From positions 1-40,468 of the forward strand of contig JAQURX010000016.1 in NCBI GenBank assembly GCA_028715415.1: a stretch of 40,468 nucleotides of DNA. The letters run 5' to 3'. The position numbers and the translations under genes were made by a program. The notes beneath the pieces were generated by a model, which did no database searches, had not been told where the DNA came from, and saw nothing but the letters and a program-made list of their open reading frames with translations. Source of the DNA: Candidatus Omnitrophota bacterium (GTDB lineage: Bacteria; Omnitrophota; Gorgyraeia; Gygaellales; Profunditerraquicolaceae). Numbering within the stretch: the first letter of the stretch is position 1; each line of letters begins with the position of its first letter. Shown here piece by piece: positions 20,971 through 33,893 of this stretch.

Positions 20971-22894
<1,924 letters not shown>

Positions 22895-23287: not shown

Positions 23288-23296
23288 TTTTGCTTT

Positions 23297-23391
23297 ACCC
23301 CCACACCTTGTTAAAAATATTAAGATGTTATTTAGGATAAATTTAAGAATTATTTCTGTATGACTGTAAATTTAAAACAAGGTGTGGGGGT
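23297..23391. repeat. Palindromic element copy 1 (ACCCCCACACC arms)
   Basis: Perfect 16-nt inverted arms ACCCCCACACCTTGTT (23297-23312) and its reverse complement (23376-23391) enclose a 63-nt AT-rich centre. The outer 11 nt, ACCCCCACACC, are identical to the arms of the element inside the ferredoxin gene at 30320-30380. The right arm is read as residues of the annotated rnhB N terminus. No T-tract follows, so it is not a standard rplS terminator. Confidence 0.8.
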
Positions 23392-23989
23392 TTATTACGA
23401 ACGCAAACTTAAAAAGCAAGGGTACGATTTAATTATAGGTGTAGATGAAGCAGGCAGAGGCCCTCTGGCAGGCCCTGTGGTTGCTGCGGCAGTTGCATTA
23501 AAAACCTTCCATTTTAAAAATCGCATAGATGATTCAAAGAAGCTTACCTCCGATTTAAGAGAAAAGGCTTTTTTGGAGATTATCAAGAAATCTATATTTG
23601 GCATAGCAATAATCAATGAGCAGATTATCGACCGCCTTAATATCCTGGTTGCAACACGCATAGCTATGGAAGAGGCGGTTAGTTCTTTGTTAAAGAAAGC
23701 CAGCTGTTTAGGCTTAAAGAAAACCCATGTTATTGTAGATGGCAATATGAACCTTGATATAAAACTGCCAAATACTGCTATTATCAAGGGGGATGCGAAA
23801 TCAAAGAGTATTGCTTCAGCATCAATTTTGGCTAAGGTAACCCGCGACCGGATAATGAATATTTATGATAAAGTGTACCCTCAGTATGGGTTTGTAAAGC
23901 ATAAAGGTTATCCAACTTGCGAACACAGGGCCACCATAAAGAAAATCGGTTTATCTTTAATCCACAGAAAGACTTTTTCAAGTGTCTGA
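23360..23989 (+). CDS. rnhB: Ribonuclease HII
   Basis: Removes ribonucleotides and RNA from RNA-DNA hybrids. The catalytic block IIGVDEAGRGPLAGPVVAA holds the first Asp-Glu pair; the later Asp is in HVIVDGNMN, and the SIASASILAKVTRDR block is present. 209 aa from the ATG at 23360, but that ATG lies within the centre of a palindromic element whose right arm encodes KQGVGV. A GTG at 23384 would give a protein starting just before YYERKLKKQGYD, which fits the usual N terminus better. No clear SD exists for either, so the start is uncertain. It overlaps yraN by 8 nt. Confidence 0.93.
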   Translation: MTVNLKQGVGVYYERKLKKQGYDLIIGVDEAGRGPLAGPVVAAAVALKTFHFKNRIDDSKKLTSDLREKAFLEIIKKSIFGIAIINEQIIDRLNILVATRIAMEEAVSSLLKKASCLGLKKTHVIVDGNMNLDIKLPNTAIIKGDAKSKSIASASILAKVTRDRIMNIYDKVYPQYGFVKHKGYPTCEHRATIKKIGLSLIHRKTFSSV

Positions 23990-26807: not shown

Positions 26808-26929
26808 AATGAATCTGCCGTCTTTTAAGTTTGAATTTTAGTGTTTCGCTTTCGGCGCTGAAAATTTTCTAATGCGCCTCCAGCAAAACACTAAAATTCA
26901 TATTCGCTCGAAAAGCCGACAGATTCATT
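26808..26929. repeat. Long inverted repeat, possible MITE-like remnant
   Basis: First part of the 332-nt gene-free stretch 26799-27130. Outer arms AATGAATCTGCCG (26808-26820) / CGACAGATTCATT (26917-26929) match at 12 of 13. Inner arms GAATTTTAGTGTTT (26833-26846) / AAACACTAAAATTC (26886-26899) match perfectly. The inner loop has a GCGC..GCGC hairpin. Short TTA repeats flank ATGAATCTG...CAGATTCAT (26806-26808 and 26929-26931), which could be a target duplication, though 3 nt may be chance. No open frame inside looks real. Confidence 0.7.
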
Positions 26930-28024: not shown

Positions 28025-29953
28025 ATGAGTGATGTTAAAACTAAATCAATAGACTTAGCAACGCAGGAAGTTTTGAAAAAAGCCCAGGAAGAAAATATCA
28101 AAACAACCTGGGATAGATTAGAGATGCAGCAGCCGCAGTGCGGTTTTGGGCAATTAGGTGTTTGCTGCACGGTTTGCAGTATGGGCCCTTGCCGCATTGA
28201 CCCGTTTGGCGAGGGTGCGCAAGTTGGCGTCTGCGGAGCGGATGCCGATACAATTACTGCAAGGAATTTAGCGCGTAAAATTGCTGTAGGAGCTGCTGCG
28301 CATTCAGACCATGGGAGAGATGTTGCAGAAGCCTTATGTCTAGTTGCCGAAGGGAGCATTAAACACAATCATCATGGGCACACGCATACTTATGAAATAT
28401 TAGATCCTGAAAAGCTTAAAGCCGTTGCTAAAGAATTTGAAATTGATATTAATAAGCCTCAAGAAGAAATCACAAAAGAATTAAGCAAAAAACTCCTTGA
28501 AGAATTTGGTAAGCAGCAGGGCGAATTAGTTTTTACTAAGCGGGCGCCAAATAAACGCAGAGAAATCTGGAAAAAATTAGGCATTACTCCACGCGGTATA
28601 GATAGAGAAGTAGTAGAACTGTTGCATACTACGACTATGGGCGTGGATAATGACTATAAGAATTTAATTAATACCGGTATGCGTTGTGCTTTATCCGACG
28701 GTTGGGGCGGGTCAATGGTTGCAACGGATGCGCAGGATATTATTTTAGGTAGTCCACAGCCAATAAGAGGCAAGGTTAATTTAGGTGTATTAAAAGAGAA
28801 TCAGGTAAATATTGTTGTGCATGGCCATGAGCCGGTTTTATCAGATATGGCGGTTAAGGCTATAAAAGACCCTGATTTATTAAAATTAGCTAAAAGTGTT
28901 GGAGCTGAAGGGATTAATTTAGCCGGTATTTGCTGTACGGCAAATGAAGTTTTAATGCGCCATGGAATCCCGATTGCGGGAAACTTCTTACAGCAGGAGT
29001 TAGCAATTATAACGGGTGCGGTTGAAGTAATGATGGTGGATGTGCAGTGTATTATGCCTGCTCTTCAAGAAGTAGCAAGTTGTTTCCATACAAAATTAAT
29101 TACCACAAACCAGAAGGCGCGTTTTCCCGGAGTAACCCATATAGAATTTAGCCACGAGAACGCCTATGAAACAACTAAACAGATTGTAAAAACTGCGATA
29201 GAAAATTTTGCCAATCGCAAAAAAGACAGAGTTAATATTCCTAAGCAGGAGATGGATCTCGTAGCAGGTTTTACTAAAGAGGGCGTCTTTCAGATGTTAG
29301 GAGGAAAGTATCGTGCAACTTACCGTCCCTTAAATGACGCGATTATCTCTGGGAAAATCCGTGGATTGGCAGGCGTTGTCGGCTGCAATAATCCTAAGCA
29401 AACACACGATTATTTTCATACGGCATTAGTAAAAGAATTAATTAAGAATGATGTTTTGGTTTTACAGACCGGTTGTTCTGCGATTGCCTGTGCAAAACAA
29501 GGGTTACTTATCCCGGAAGCGGCTAAAACTTATGCTGGAAAAGGATTGCAGGAGATTTGTGAGGCAGTAGGGATCCCTCCGGTTCTGCATTTAGGTTCTT
29601 GTGTGGATAATTCACGCATTTTAACCGCAGCTTCGCAAATAATAGCAGAAGGTGGATTAGGAGAAGATTTATCTGATATCCCGGCAGCAGGCTGTGCTCC
29701 TGAATGGATGTCGGAAAAAGCAATTACTATCGGTTTTTATTTTGTTGCATCAGGCGTTTATACTGTATTTGGCTCAACTCCTTTTGCAACTTTAGGAAGT
29801 AAGAATTTAACAGAATATCTTACTAATGGTTTAGAAAAAGTTGTGGGAGGAAGGTTTGAGTTCTGTGATGATCCGTTAAAGATGGCAAAGCTCATGATTA
29901 ATCATATTGATAAAAAACGAGAAGCGTTAAAATTAAAGCCTGCCGCGCACTAA
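28025..29953 (+). CDS. cooS: Nickel-dependent CO dehydrogenase catalytic subunit
   Basis: Interconverts CO and CO2; as AcsA-type subunit it supplies CO to acetyl-CoA synthase. 642 aa. The N-terminal cluster motif CGFGQLGVCCTVCSMGPCRI plus GVCGAD provides B- and D-cluster cysteines. C-cluster ligands appear in order: HGHEPV (His), NLAGICCTANEV, DVQCIMPALQEVA, VVGCNNPKQTHDYF, LQTGCSAIACAKQG and LHLGSCVDNSRI. All positions expected for an active enzyme are present. SD AGGAGG is strong. It is followed 1 nt later by a CooF-like ferredoxin and then an FAD oxidoreductase and acsB. Confidence 0.96.
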   Translation: MSDVKTKSIDLATQEVLKKAQEENIKTTWDRLEMQQPQCGFGQLGVCCTVCSMGPCRIDPFGEGAQVGVCGADADTITARNLARKIAVGAAAHSDHGRDVAEALCLVAEGSIKHNHHGHTHTYEILDPEKLKAVAKEFEIDINKPQEEITKELSKKLLEEFGKQQGELVFTKRAPNKRREIWKKLGITPRGIDREVVELLHTTTMGVDNDYKNLINTGMRCALSDGWGGSMVATDAQDIILGSPQPIRGKVNLGVLKENQVNIVVHGHEPVLSDMAVKAIKDPDLLKLAKSVGAEGINLAGICCTANEVLMRHGIPIAGNFLQQELAIITGAVEVMMVDVQCIMPALQEVASCFHTKLITTNQKARFPGVTHIEFSHENAYETTKQIVKTAIENFANRKKDRVNIPKQEMDLVAGFTKEGVFQMLGGKYRATYRPLNDAIISGKIRGLAGVVGCNNPKQTHDYFHTALVKELIKNDVLVLQTGCSAIACAKQGLLIPEAAKTYAGKGLQEICEAVGIPPVLHLGSCVDNSRILTAASQIIAEGGLGEDLSDIPAAGCAPEWMSEKAITIGFYFVASGVYTVFGSTPFATLGSKNLTEYLTNGLEKVVGGRFEFCDDPLKMAKLMINHIDKKREALKLKPAAH

Positions 29954-29954
29954 T

Positions 29955-30455
29955 ATGAAAAAACTGTATTATGAAGTAAAAAAATGTTTAGGCTGCAAGT
30001 CTTGCGAGATTAGCTGTAGTATCGCGCATTCAAAGACAAGCGACCTATTTAAAATGCTTAAAGAAGAAACAGTGCCTCTTCCTCGTAAAAAAGTTTTTTC
30101 TTCCGATAGCAAGAACTATCCGGTTTCCTGCCGTCATTGTAAGGAGGCTAAGTGTGTGGATGCTTGTATGGCAGTTGCATTAACTTATGATGCAAAAAAA
30201 GGCATTGTTAATCATGATGAATCACGCTGTGTTGGCTGCTGGATGTGCGTTATGGCTTGTCCTTATGGAGCAATCAGACCGAATATAAAAGCAAAGATTC
30301 CCGTTAGATGCGATAAATGTACACCCCCACACCAATTGCAAAATAATAAACATGAATTCCTCAATTGGTGTGGGGGTGTAGATGAGCCATCTTGCGTTAA
30401 GGCATGCCCTACACATGCAATTGTCTGGCAGGAAGAGGAGCTTACGAAAAAATGA
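29955..30455 (+). CDS. CooF-like four-cluster ferredoxin with an element-encoded insertion
   Basis: 166-aa polyferredoxin that likely takes electrons from CooS. Cysteine groups: CLGCKSCEISC, CRHCKEAKCVDAC, CVGCWMCVMACPYGAI, and CDKC (Cys119, Cys122) with CVKACP (Cys147, Cys151). Between Cys122 and Cys147 are 24 residues where relatives usually have about 7-11. Residues 123-142 (TPPHQLQ...WCGGV) are encoded precisely by a perfect DNA palindrome, 30320-30380, related to another in the window. Reading frame and all cluster cysteines survive, so the protein may still fold with an extra loop. It overlaps the next gene by 4 nt. Confidence 0.92.
   Translation: MKKLYYEVKKCLGCKSCEISCSIAHSKTSDLFKMLKEETVPLPRKKVFSSDSKNYPVSCRHCKEAKCVDACMAVALTYDAKKGIVNHDESRCVGCWMCVMACPYGAIRPNIKAKIPVRCDKCTPPHQLQNNKHEFLNWCGGVDEPSCVKACPTHAIVWQEEELTKK
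30320..30380. repeat. Palindromic element copy 2, inside the ferredoxin gene
   Basis: Perfect 19-nt arms (30320-30338 and 30362-30380) around a 23-nt centre, 61 nt in total. The left arm contains ACACCCCCACACC, and the 11 nt ACCCCCACACC are shared exactly with copy 1 at 23297. The two copies are read in different frames relative to their host genes (KQGVGV versus NWCGGV). This fits insertion or spread at DNA level rather than shared protein ancestry. Confidence 0.85.
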
Positions 30456-31717
30456 AACAATATCTGATTATCGGAAACTCTGCAGCAGGAATTTCTGCAG
30501 TTGAAGCAATCCGTGCAAAAGATAAAACTTCCAAGATTACCATCATCTCCGATGAGGATTATCCTTCTTATTGCCGTTGCCTTATCTCTTATTATTTGGC
30601 TGGCGATATTAAGGAAGAAAAAATACTCTTGCGCCCGGATGCTTTTTATAAAGAAAATAATATTGAGCTAATTTTAAATAAAAGAGTAGACCGGGTTAAC
30701 CCTAAGAAAAATCAGGTTGTTTGCGTGGATAAAACTTTAATTAATTATGACACGCTTCTTATCGCAACAGGGGCCCGTCCTAAATTCCCCGAAATTAAGG
30801 GGATAAAGAAAACAGGGGTGTTTGGTTTCAGGACAATACAAGACGCAAAGAAAATAAGCGAGCAGGTTAATTTGATAAAGAGTGCTTGTGTTTTAGGAGG
30901 GGGGCTTGTCGGACTTAAGGCAGCATATGGATTAAAGAAAAGAAAAGTTGACGTAAAAGTAATCGTTAAGTCAAAACAGATTTTATCGCAAATGCTGGAT
31001 GCTCAAGCAGCTTCAATGGTGCAGAAAAGGCTAGAAGAAAATGGCATTGATGTAATCTTAGGCCGGGATATAACAGAGGTAATCGGCGAAGGGGAAATGA
31101 AGGCGGTAAAATTAGATTCTGGAAAGGCTTTGGAATGTTCTTTGTTGGTTGTAGGAAAAGGTGTCCAGCCGAATATGGAATTAGTCAAAGAAACAGAGAT
31201 TAAGGTTGGTGAAGGGATTATTACCGGGAAAGATTTAAAGACAAATGTAGAGAATATTTTTTCTGCCGGGGATGTTTGTGAGAATTATGATTTAACTCTT
31301 GGAAAGCCTAGTATTAATGCTCTCTGGCCGGTGGCAGTTGAACAGGGGAAAGCAGCAGGGAGTAATATGGCAGGAGAGAATATTATTTATGACGGTTCTT
31401 TAGGGATGAATTCAATTGAGTTTTTCGGCCTTCCGGTTATTTCTTTGGGTATCTATAAAGTAGATGAAGCTAGTAAGGATTATGAGGTGATCAAAGTTAT
31501 AGATGATAAAGCAAATCTTTATAAAAAGATAGTTTTGCATAATAATAATTTAGTCGGCGCAGTATTTGCCGGCGACATAAGAAATAGCGGAGTTTTCTTG
31601 AAGCTGATAAAAGAGCGCGTCGATGTAACGCCTTTTAAGGATAAATTATTAGAGGAAAATTTTGGTTTTCCCGGGATTATAGATTTCCTGAAAGATAAGG
31701 AGCGGATATATGTCTAA
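30452..31717 (+). CDS. FAD-dependent NAD(P)-linked oxidoreductase
   Basis: 421-aa pyridine nucleotide-disulfide oxidoreductase-type flavoprotein. FAD-binding LIIGNSAAGISAVEAIRA at the N terminus, ATG motif LLIATGARPKFPEI, second Rossmann fold CVLGGGLVGLKAAYGLKKR for NAD(P)H, and FAD-closing FSAGDVCENYDLTLG. It uses the ATG at 30452 (ATGA overlap with the ferredoxin); a longer frame from 30404 would overlap the ferredoxin by 52 nt without need. Similar flavoproteins accompany cooS-cooF pairs and can pass electrons from ferredoxin to NAD(P) or to rubredoxin. Its partner here is inferred. Confidence 0.88.
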   Translation: MKQYLIIGNSAAGISAVEAIRAKDKTSKITIISDEDYPSYCRCLISYYLAGDIKEEKILLRPDAFYKENNIELILNKRVDRVNPKKNQVVCVDKTLINYDTLLIATGARPKFPEIKGIKKTGVFGFRTIQDAKKISEQVNLIKSACVLGGGLVGLKAAYGLKKRKVDVKVIVKSKQILSQMLDAQAASMVQKRLEENGIDVILGRDITEVIGEGEMKAVKLDSGKALECSLLVVGKGVQPNMELVKETEIKVGEGIITGKDLKTNVENIFSAGDVCENYDLTLGKPSINALWPVAVEQGKAAGSNMAGENIIYDGSLGMNSIEFFGLPVISLGIYKVDEASKDYEVIKVIDDKANLYKKIVLHNNNLVGAVFAGDIRNSGVFLKLIKERVDVTPFKDKLLEENFGFPGIIDFLKDKERIYV

Positions 31718-33893
31718 GATTGTGGCAACTCTTGCGATTAATGGCGCAAATCAGGTTTTTAAACAAGCATCTGATTTTCTAAATAAAGCGATAAAAGAAA
31801 AAGGCAAAGAGCAAAAGGTGGGCTTCCCGGAAACTGCATTTTATCTTCCCATGGCAAATGCTTTATTGGGGGCAAAAGTAGAAACTCTTCAGGATATGCT
31901 TCCTATATTAGAGCATGCTAAATTGCTCCTACCTAAAAGTGTGCCAACTGATAAAGTCTGGCTTCCTTATTTAGGGGATGTTTTAAATGCCGGTATGTCT
32001 ACTTTATTTAGCGAAGAAATTATTATGGCGCTGCGTTATCTTTACGCCGAAGAGCCGCAGAAAGATTGCAATGGATTTTTTAGCGATACAATTTTGCGGT
32101 CATTAGGTATACAGCTTGTTGATGGTCGTATGTCGGGGTTTGCCGCAATCTTAGGAGCAGCTCCTGATAATAAAACCGCAGTTAAAATTATCCGCGATTT
32201 GCAGGAAAGAAATATTCTTATTTTCGTCGGTTCATCTGTGGGGAATCGTTCCATTATCGACCAGCTGTTAGAAGAAAATGTGCAGATGGGCTGGGACAAT
32301 TATATTGTTCCTTACGGACGCGATACAATCTCTGGAATTTATGCATTGAATTGGGCAATACGTGCAGCTTTAACCTTTGGGGGGATTAAAGCAGGAGAGG
32401 CACAAAAATGCTTGCAGTATACTAAAGAGCGCGTTTTGGCATTCGGTTTGGTTTTAGGTGCATTAGATGAAATAAAAGTTGCGACAGGCGCCGGTGCGAT
32501 AAATATGGGTTTCCCGATTATTGCAGATACGGATATCCCGGAGATAAAAGCCTCGGGAATAACTACCTATGAAGCATTGGTTAAGGAATTGGATTATAAA
32601 AAATTAGTTCCTCGTTGTATTGAGGTAAGAGGGATAAAGGTTGCTGTGAGTAATATCCCTGTTCCGGTTGCATATGCTGCTGCATTTGAGGGCGAGCGTG
32701 TTAGAAAAGAGCAATTGCATGTTGAATTTGGCGGGAAGGCAAGCCTTGCTTTTGAATATTTGATTACAAAGAAATCTGAAGAAGTAGAAGATGGCTTAAT
32801 TGAATTGATCGGCCCTGATGTTGATAAATTGGAAGGCGATAGCAAATCTTTGCCTTTGGCAATTGTTGTTGAGGTTGCCGGGCGCAAGATGCAAAAAGAT
32901 TTTGAGCCGATATTAGAACGCCAGATTCACCGCTTTACAAATTACGCGATGGGCTTAATGCACGTCGGCCAGCGCGATATGAACTGGATCAGGATTTCAA
33001 AGGATGCTTTTGCAAAAGGCTTTAGGTTAAAGCATATAGGTGTAATTTTGCATGCGATGCTGCATCAGGAATACAGCGCAATTGTTGATAAAATTCAAGT
33101 TAAGCTTTATACAAAAAAAGAAGATGTGGAGAAATTGTTAACCGCCGCAAAAAAGAGCTATGATGAACGCGATGCGCGCCTTGAGGGGATGACGGATGAA
33201 AGCGTGGATACTTTTTATTCCTGTTTATTATGCCAGTCTTTTGCGCCGAATCATGTTTGTATAGTAAGCCCCGAGCGCTTAGGCCTTTGCGGCGCTTATT
33301 CCTGGCTTGATGCAAAAGCTTCATTTGAAATTACTCCAACCGGGCCGAATCAGCCGATTGAAAAAGGCCGCTTACTTAATGAAAAAATCGGGCAATGGGA
33401 TAATATAAATACTTTCATTAGAAATAAATCCAATAAAACTATTGAAACAGTGAGTATGTATTCTTTGATGGATTCTCCTCAGTCTTCATGCGGATGTTTT
33501 GAATGTATCGTCGCGATTATCCCTGAGGCAAACGGGATAATGGTTGTGCATCGTGATTACGCCGGAATGACTCCAAGCGGCATGACTTTTACAACCCTTG
33601 CAGGTTCTGTCGGAGGGGGGGTGCAGACTCCAGGGTTCTTAGGAGTAGGCAAGCTTTATATTTTAAGCAAAAAGTTTGTTTCCGCCGAAGGTGGGCTTAA
33701 GCGTGTTGTCTGGATGCCTAAAGAATTAAAAGAAATCTTAGGTGAAAAATTAACTAAGCGAGCGCAAGAATTAGGCATGCCGGATTTGATTGATAGGATT
33801 GCCGATGAAACTAAGGCTGTTACTTCCGAAGAGTTGCTGGGATTTTTAGAAAAGGCCAAGCACCCTGTTTTGGAAATGGAACCGTTAATTTAG
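31710..33893 (+). CDS. acsB: CO-methylating acetyl-CoA synthase
   Basis: Condenses CO, a corrinoid-bound methyl group and CoA to acetyl-CoA. 727 aa, full bacterial length with the N-terminal CODH-binding domain, unlike the shorter archaeal CdhC. A-cluster cysteines are visible as CLLCQSFAPNHVC, followed by ERLGLCGAYSW and the nickel-binding SSCGCFEC. Other strong blocks are GWDNYIVPYGRDTISGIYAL and HVGQRDMNWIRISKDAFAKG. It overlaps the flavoprotein gene by 8 nt. Corrinoid protein and methyltransferase genes are not nearby. Confidence 0.97.
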   Translation: MSKIVATLAINGANQVFKQASDFLNKAIKEKGKEQKVGFPETAFYLPMANALLGAKVETLQDMLPILEHAKLLLPKSVPTDKVWLPYLGDVLNAGMSTLFSEEIIMALRYLYAEEPQKDCNGFFSDTILRSLGIQLVDGRMSGFAAILGAAPDNKTAVKIIRDLQERNILIFVGSSVGNRSIIDQLLEENVQMGWDNYIVPYGRDTISGIYALNWAIRAALTFGGIKAGEAQKCLQYTKERVLAFGLVLGALDEIKVATGAGAINMGFPIIADTDIPEIKASGITTYEALVKELDYKKLVPRCIEVRGIKVAVSNIPVPVAYAAAFEGERVRKEQLHVEFGGKASLAFEYLITKKSEEVEDGLIELIGPDVDKLEGDSKSLPLAIVVEVAGRKMQKDFEPILERQIHRFTNYAMGLMHVGQRDMNWIRISKDAFAKGFRLKHIGVILHAMLHQEYSAIVDKIQVKLYTKKEDVEKLLTAAKKSYDERDARLEGMTDESVDTFYSCLLCQSFAPNHVCIVSPERLGLCGAYSWLDAKASFEITPTGPNQPIEKGRLLNEKIGQWDNINTFIRNKSNKTIETVSMYSLMDSPQSSCGCFECIVAIIPEANGIMVVHRDYAGMTPSGMTFTTLAGSVGGGVQTPGFLGVGKLYILSKKFVSAEGGLKRVVWMPKELKEILGEKLTKRAQELGMPDLIDRIADETKAVTSEELLGFLEKAKHPVLEMEPLI

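Follow-up and report, generated by a model that had tools for sequence, protein, structure and literature searches.

An in-frame 53-bp palindrome in an Omnitrophota ferredoxin gene and its likely relationship to small GIY-YIG nuclease elements

The ferredoxin locus and its insert

The window analysed here is the whole 40,468-nucleotide stretch of contig JAQURX010000016.1 (assembly GCA_028715415.1) from a Candidatus Omnitrophota bacterium. It carries a gene for a CooF-like ferredoxin, and the adjacency of this electron carrier to CO dehydrogenase, which had been recognised from the letters alone, was confirmed by a profile match placing the catalytic subunit directly upstream. The features are as follows.

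23298..23390, no strand: second copy of the element, 93 bp, between rplS and rnhB, with exact TTTA duplications (23294-23297 / 23391-23394)
28025..29953, + strand: CO dehydrogenase catalytic subunit (Prismane/CODH; profile match), upstream neighbour of the ferredoxin gene
29955..30455, + strand: CooF-like four-cluster ferredoxin CDS (166 aa; Pfam Fer4_7/Fer4_11 and orthologue alignment), host of the palindrome
30320..30323, no strand: TACA, presumed decayed left target-site tetranucleotide of the TNNA type (from 4-bp duplications in sister copies; inexact here)
30320..30338, + strand: left arm, 19 nt, perfect, flank TACA included (sequence)
30324..30376, no strand: palindromic mobile element, 53 bp, in frame, CCCCCACACCAATTG...CAATTGGTGTGGGGG (tips form six inverted pairs in the genome; absent from orthologues)
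30362..30380, + strand: right arm, 19 nt, perfect, flank TGTA included (sequence)
30377..30380, no strand: TGTA, presumed decayed right target-site tetranucleotide (from 4-bp duplications in sister copies)
30452..31717, + strand: FAD/NAD(P)H-dependent oxidoreductase (profile match), downstream neighbour of the ferredoxin gene
31710..33893, + strand: CODH/acetyl-CoA synthase beta subunit (AcsB/CdhC; profile match), after the oxidoreductase

In a sequence-only reading, it was proposed that a palindrome with perfect 19-nt arms, spanning 30320-30380, had been inserted in frame into the ferredoxin gene. The two arms are indeed exact inverted copies separated by a 23-nt loop, but the repeated unit is smaller than the palindrome: it is the 53-nt CCCCC...GGGGG core at 30324-30376, reading CCCCCACACC...GGTGTGGGGG, while the outer TACA and TGTA are flanks that lie outside the repeat. 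These flanks share two of their four letters, and the mismatches lengthen the palindrome. Simulated Markov sequence is expected to contain inverted arms of at least 14 nt within 60 nt only 0.01 times per window. As RNA, the palindrome folds at -44.6 kcal/mol (z = -7.5), and not one of 200 shuffled sequences was equally stable.

Despite the insert, the ferredoxin stays in frame, keeps each of its 16 cluster cysteines and gains a further cysteine (Cys139), in line with what had been noted before. The gap between Cys122 and Cys147 is 24 residues, compared with 7 in nearly all relatives, which bears out the claim of a widened CxxC-to-CxxxC spacing. When orthologues were aligned, a check that had been suggested, the insert was missing from about 27 proteins of the host family as sampled (the closest 77% identical) and from 21 aligned relatives of other genomes; these have CxxC-7 residues-CxxxC or nearly so, and the usual CKDKDEP corresponds to C, 20 residues, DEP in the window ferredoxin. 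The net gain is 17 codons (51 nt, not 57), so a 6-nt loss or a later repair has to be assumed. Repair of an imperfect palindrome by template switching could give both the TACA/TGTA flanks and this loss. In the AlphaFold2 model (mean pLDDT 69, pTM 0.60), residues 123-142 have a pLDDT below 50, with most others at 60-87, which suggests a flexible loop that is probably exposed.

The repeat family and its full-length members

The proposed search for further copies showed that the palindrome is not confined to a single locus. Exactly 12 instances of the 10-nt tip CCCCCACACC are present in the 1.85-Mb genome; they form six inverted pairs, leaving none unpaired, and the reversed pattern, used as a control, gave no match. 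The pairs are the ferredoxin copy (53 bp), the copy at 23298-23390 (93 bp), which supplies the ATG opening the rnhB reading frame, two copies of 52 bp (C4 and C17, the latter flanked by an ompH-like gene and lpxD) and two longer ones (C7 and C15; 293 and 299 bp). In a diverged seventh copy (G000 C13:2577-2632, or L007:1501-1556), which makes up an in-frame stretch at the N-terminus of dapF, CCCACACACC is paired with GGTGTGTGGG, so both arms have been altered together by compensating changes. Among the copies of this genome the tips agree, and the inner parts of the arms vary yet stay complementary (AATTG, AATTT, AACTC, TTGTT).

Two other inverted repeats in the window fall outside the CCCCCACACC family: an imperfect 27-nt repeat between genes at 26832-26900, possibly a terminator, and a 16-nt repeat at 20989-21036 (CGGGGCAACCCCACCG / CGGTGGGGTTGTCTCG).

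The sole gene of both the C7 and C15 copies encodes a single-domain GIY-YIG nuclease, in each case matching PF01541 above the Pfam threshold (E = 1.4e-14 and 6e-19). These two copies are located at the trpC-trpF junction and at the junction of a transporter permease and ATPase, with exact duplications (TAAA, TAAT) that leave the stop codon of the upstream gene intact. Downstream, both end in GGAGTTGGTGTGGGGGTAA, with a Shine-Dalgarno-like GGAG and a GTG that, judged from the sequence, could be a start offered to the downstream gene. GIY-YIG copies of one genome are 72-90% identical to each other; their flanks are about 40-57% identical.

In a scan of 384 Omnitrophota genomes, the short palindrome was found in 27 genomes and 25 of 283 genera, and the control pattern gave no match in the 384. 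In the host family it was present in 13 of 97 genomes. Pairs of terminal inverted repeats (TIRs) about 260-310 bp apart were present in 16 of the 384 genomes. A GIY-YIG gene was found in 18 of the 23 pairs, and it is the only gene in the 18 full-length elements sharing the palindrome ends. Among the 12 genomes carrying GIY-YIG elements, 6 have short palindromes as well, which is above chance (p = 5e-5). The inner arms of the family are of two types, AATT/AACT and CCAG. In a tree of 29 nuclease sequences, the CCCCACACC nucleases group with one another (94/98), apart from a single one on a long branch, the CCAG-type nucleases form a single clade (93/99) and nucleases with GTTAGA ends lie elsewhere; the labels cluster by TIR type, to a degree that no shuffle out of 200 reached. 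Another palindrome family, CCCGTTAGA...TCTAACGGG, was seen in 86 of 384 genomes, with up to 53 copies in one.

Many copies lie in a larger arrangement, in which a palindrome or GIY-YIG element is bracketed by two inverted copies of another hairpin repeat (AAATGAG...CGAAYTTA; 65 of 96 copies, at loci including L167, L168, L170, L171, L176, L177, L217, L219 and L222), recalling BIMEs. About two-thirds of the surveyed copies are inside this composite repeat, in other genomes, where it may be either a favoured target of the element or a mobile unit of larger size.

Some candidates were set aside. GC-rich short palindromes of G371, G273 and G176, although they carry the same tips, were regarded as a different kind, and TIR pairs in G408, G356, G327 and G054 have no GIY-YIG gene and were left uncounted. 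The CCCCACACCTGC TIR pairs of G408 (L229, L230), 263-267 bp apart with ATGATG-like flanks and no GIY-YIG, probably belong to another element. Viral contigs gave 36 loose-pattern matches, none with AATT or CCAG inner arms, so a viral carrier was not seen.

Insertion sites and mode of movement

Six copies lie clearly within protein genes, namely those for the ferredoxin, enolase, threonine synthase (thrC), an RsmD-like methyltransferase, a ferredoxin-ETF alpha protein and 5-formyltetrahydrofolate cyclo-ligase, and all six are in frame and open. The enolase copy interrupts FYK and DGNY with TAAA duplicated, the methyltransferase copy sits directly after DPPY and that of the cyclo-ligase is close to the N-terminus. 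The core from CCCCACACC to GGTGTGGGG is 51 nt in all six, which corresponds to an element of 53 bp and, with the 4-bp duplication, to 57 nt; short-copy cores in general are mostly 45-57 bp. Lengths divisible by three were found in 6 of 6 in-gene copies and 31 of 72 elsewhere (Fisher p = 0.009, a test that counts partly related copies as independent). The earlier idea of a protein-coding palindrome in an unrelated lineage gains support from these in-frame copies in conserved genes, which would be translated with their hosts. Neither of the two outcomes named beforehand as refuting it was seen, since the orthologues have no such loop and the genome contains further copies.

Structured RNAs have also received copies. 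The C4 copy (G000, L066:1501-1552) forms helix P12 of RNase P RNA, and so does a CCAG-type copy in another genome (L187:1537-1582); the same helix was thus supplied independently by two different subfamilies. A further copy (L163:1474-1522) forms a peripheral helix of an FMN riboswitch.

Among 31 isolated copies, defined as those outside composite repeats, 8 have exact 4-bp duplications in their flanks, compared with 1.1 expected and with none of 5000 permutations as high; duplication lengths of 5 to 8 showed no significant excess in the same 31 copies. The target sites are mostly TNNA (TAAA, TAAT, TTTA, TCAA). A second kind of TIR in GIY-YIG elements, TCCYGTTAGAC/CCCCGTTAGA (ends CCCCGTTAGAGAT, TCCYGTTAGACC), is accompanied by exact duplications in 4 of 4 elements (TAAA, TGAA, TGAA, TGAA). 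The exact TAAA/TGAA duplications are also noted for GIY-YIG elements with ends similar to those of the CCCGTTAGA family (L143, L145, L148, L150). The likely autonomous GIY-YIG partner and the measured 4-bp target-site duplication are additions to the sequence-only reading.

We propose, with a probability of roughly 0.72, that the palindrome represents a non-autonomous form of a tiny GIY-YIG DNA element, cut and pasted by the nuclease of that element, and that the ferredoxin insert is translated. The full element (~265-310 bp), with CCCC(C)ACACC inverted ends and encoding the GIY-YIG nuclease alone, would be recognised by its own product, either at the ends or at the hairpin that they form. At a TNNA-type site the nuclease would make cuts staggered by 4 nt, into which full or palindrome-only copies would be pasted with duplication of 4 bp. 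As 53 bp and the 4-bp duplication add up to 57 nt, insertion of a copy of this length into a gene would not shift the frame. In the ferredoxin, translation of the copy would then yield a disordered loop (residues 123-142) next to one 4Fe-4S site, possibly with a near-neutral effect on the protein. Counting against the proposal are the inexact TACA/TGTA flanks and the 51-nt net gain of the ferredoxin copy, as well as the composite repeats of other genomes.

An unlikely alternative is that the palindrome is a MITE moved by an unrelated (e.g. DDE) transposase, with the GIY-YIG gene as a passenger. TIRs with a 4-bp duplication are a classical insertion-sequence signature too, and to our knowledge GIY-YIG nucleases are no established transposase class and are not known to act as transposases of cut-and-paste elements. 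However, every exact CCCCCACACC in the genome falls in a pair 52-299 bp long, which means that the assembly, 97% complete, contains nothing larger that is bounded by exactly these ends. The GIY-YIG gene as the sole gene of all 18 full-length elements, and a nuclease lineage that tracks TIR type, also argue against a passenger.

It is improbable that the element spreads as homing endonucleases do, by gene conversion at fixed cognate sites instead of transposition. GIY-YIG is a classical homing-nuclease fold, the two junction copies are at stop/start positions, and many copies of other genomes share one repeated context. Inverted ends, 4-bp duplications at differing sites and non-coding short derivatives, on the other hand, are not homing features.

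Still more improbable is that the insert is transcribed and never reaches the protein, being skipped by the ribosome (translational bypassing) or cut from the RNA. A hairpin of such stability within the mRNA would suit this explanation, and mobile bypassed hairpins are known in yeast mitochondria. Neither bypass nor removal requires open frames or a length divisible by three, whereas the six gene insertions have both, and translation is therefore favoured over bypass; the Rfam search of the window gave no match, such as a self-splicing intron. A lineage-specific loop that is palindromic by chance, or an assembly artefact, has nothing in its favour beyond the single locus and is refuted by copy number, with six paired copies on several contigs, an empty reversed control and counterparts in 27 genomes.

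Comparison with known systems

Knowledge of protein-coding palindromes dates back to 2000 and comes mainly from Rickettsia and Wolbachia. The Omnitrophota family resembles the Rickettsia palindromic elements (RPEs) in being a palindromic repeat with hairpin potential that lies in frame in conserved protein genes and is found in RNase P RNA too (PMC2229807, PMC10969869); RPEs occur in tmRNA as well (PMC2229807), and in-frame fusion has been described as unusually frequent in Rickettsia (PMC10969869). The analogy drawn earlier is thus borne out as a likeness of behaviour, seen in the in-frame placement within conserved genes and in the RNase P RNA copies, with no claim of homology. RPEs are ~105-150 bp long, compared with 53 bp for the ferredoxin element, and their host phylum is unrelated. 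The Omnitrophota family has target duplications and GIY-YIG full-length relatives, whereas the target duplication of RPEs carries a question mark in a 2007 review table (PMC2229807). In the accessible literature, no mobilising enzyme is named for protein-coding palindromes.

REP/REPIN sequences with their RAYT (TnpA-REP) are similar in that short palindromes share inverted ends with a nuclease gene and hairpins form clusters in some genomes. However, the partner here is a PF01541 GIY-YIG protein and not a Y1 HUH transposase, and the Omnitrophota family has target duplications, a low copy number and copies inside coding genes. Bacterial MITEs are also short, with TIRs, a target-site duplication (at family level; inexact at the ferredoxin) and full-length relatives with the same ends, but the full-length relative here is only ~265-310 bp and encodes no known transposase class. 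Free-standing GIY-YIG homing endonucleases share the fold and the small single-domain nuclease (PF01541), and differ from the present elements, which have inverted repeats, 4-bp duplications, differing sites and short derivatives. One study inferred that other bacteria have received GIY-YIG genes from Patescibacteria (PMC12455944). In the part of the literature searched, journal papers readable without subscription, TIR-bounded GIY-YIG elements were nowhere described.

Whether these elements make up a minimal class of DNA transposon (~265-310 bp), with GIY-YIG as the sole protein and at least two end families (CCCCACACC and CCCGTTAGA types), which mobilises palindromes into proteins and structured RNAs across one phylum, is to us an evenly balanced question. 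The family documents mobile DNA enlarging proteins in frame, and structured RNAs, in conserved genes. RPE-like behaviour is now seen in a phylum unrelated to the hosts of RPEs, where it is accompanied by full-length elements, a measurable target-site duplication and a candidate nuclease of fewer than 100 residues, which makes the mechanism of mobilisation testable.
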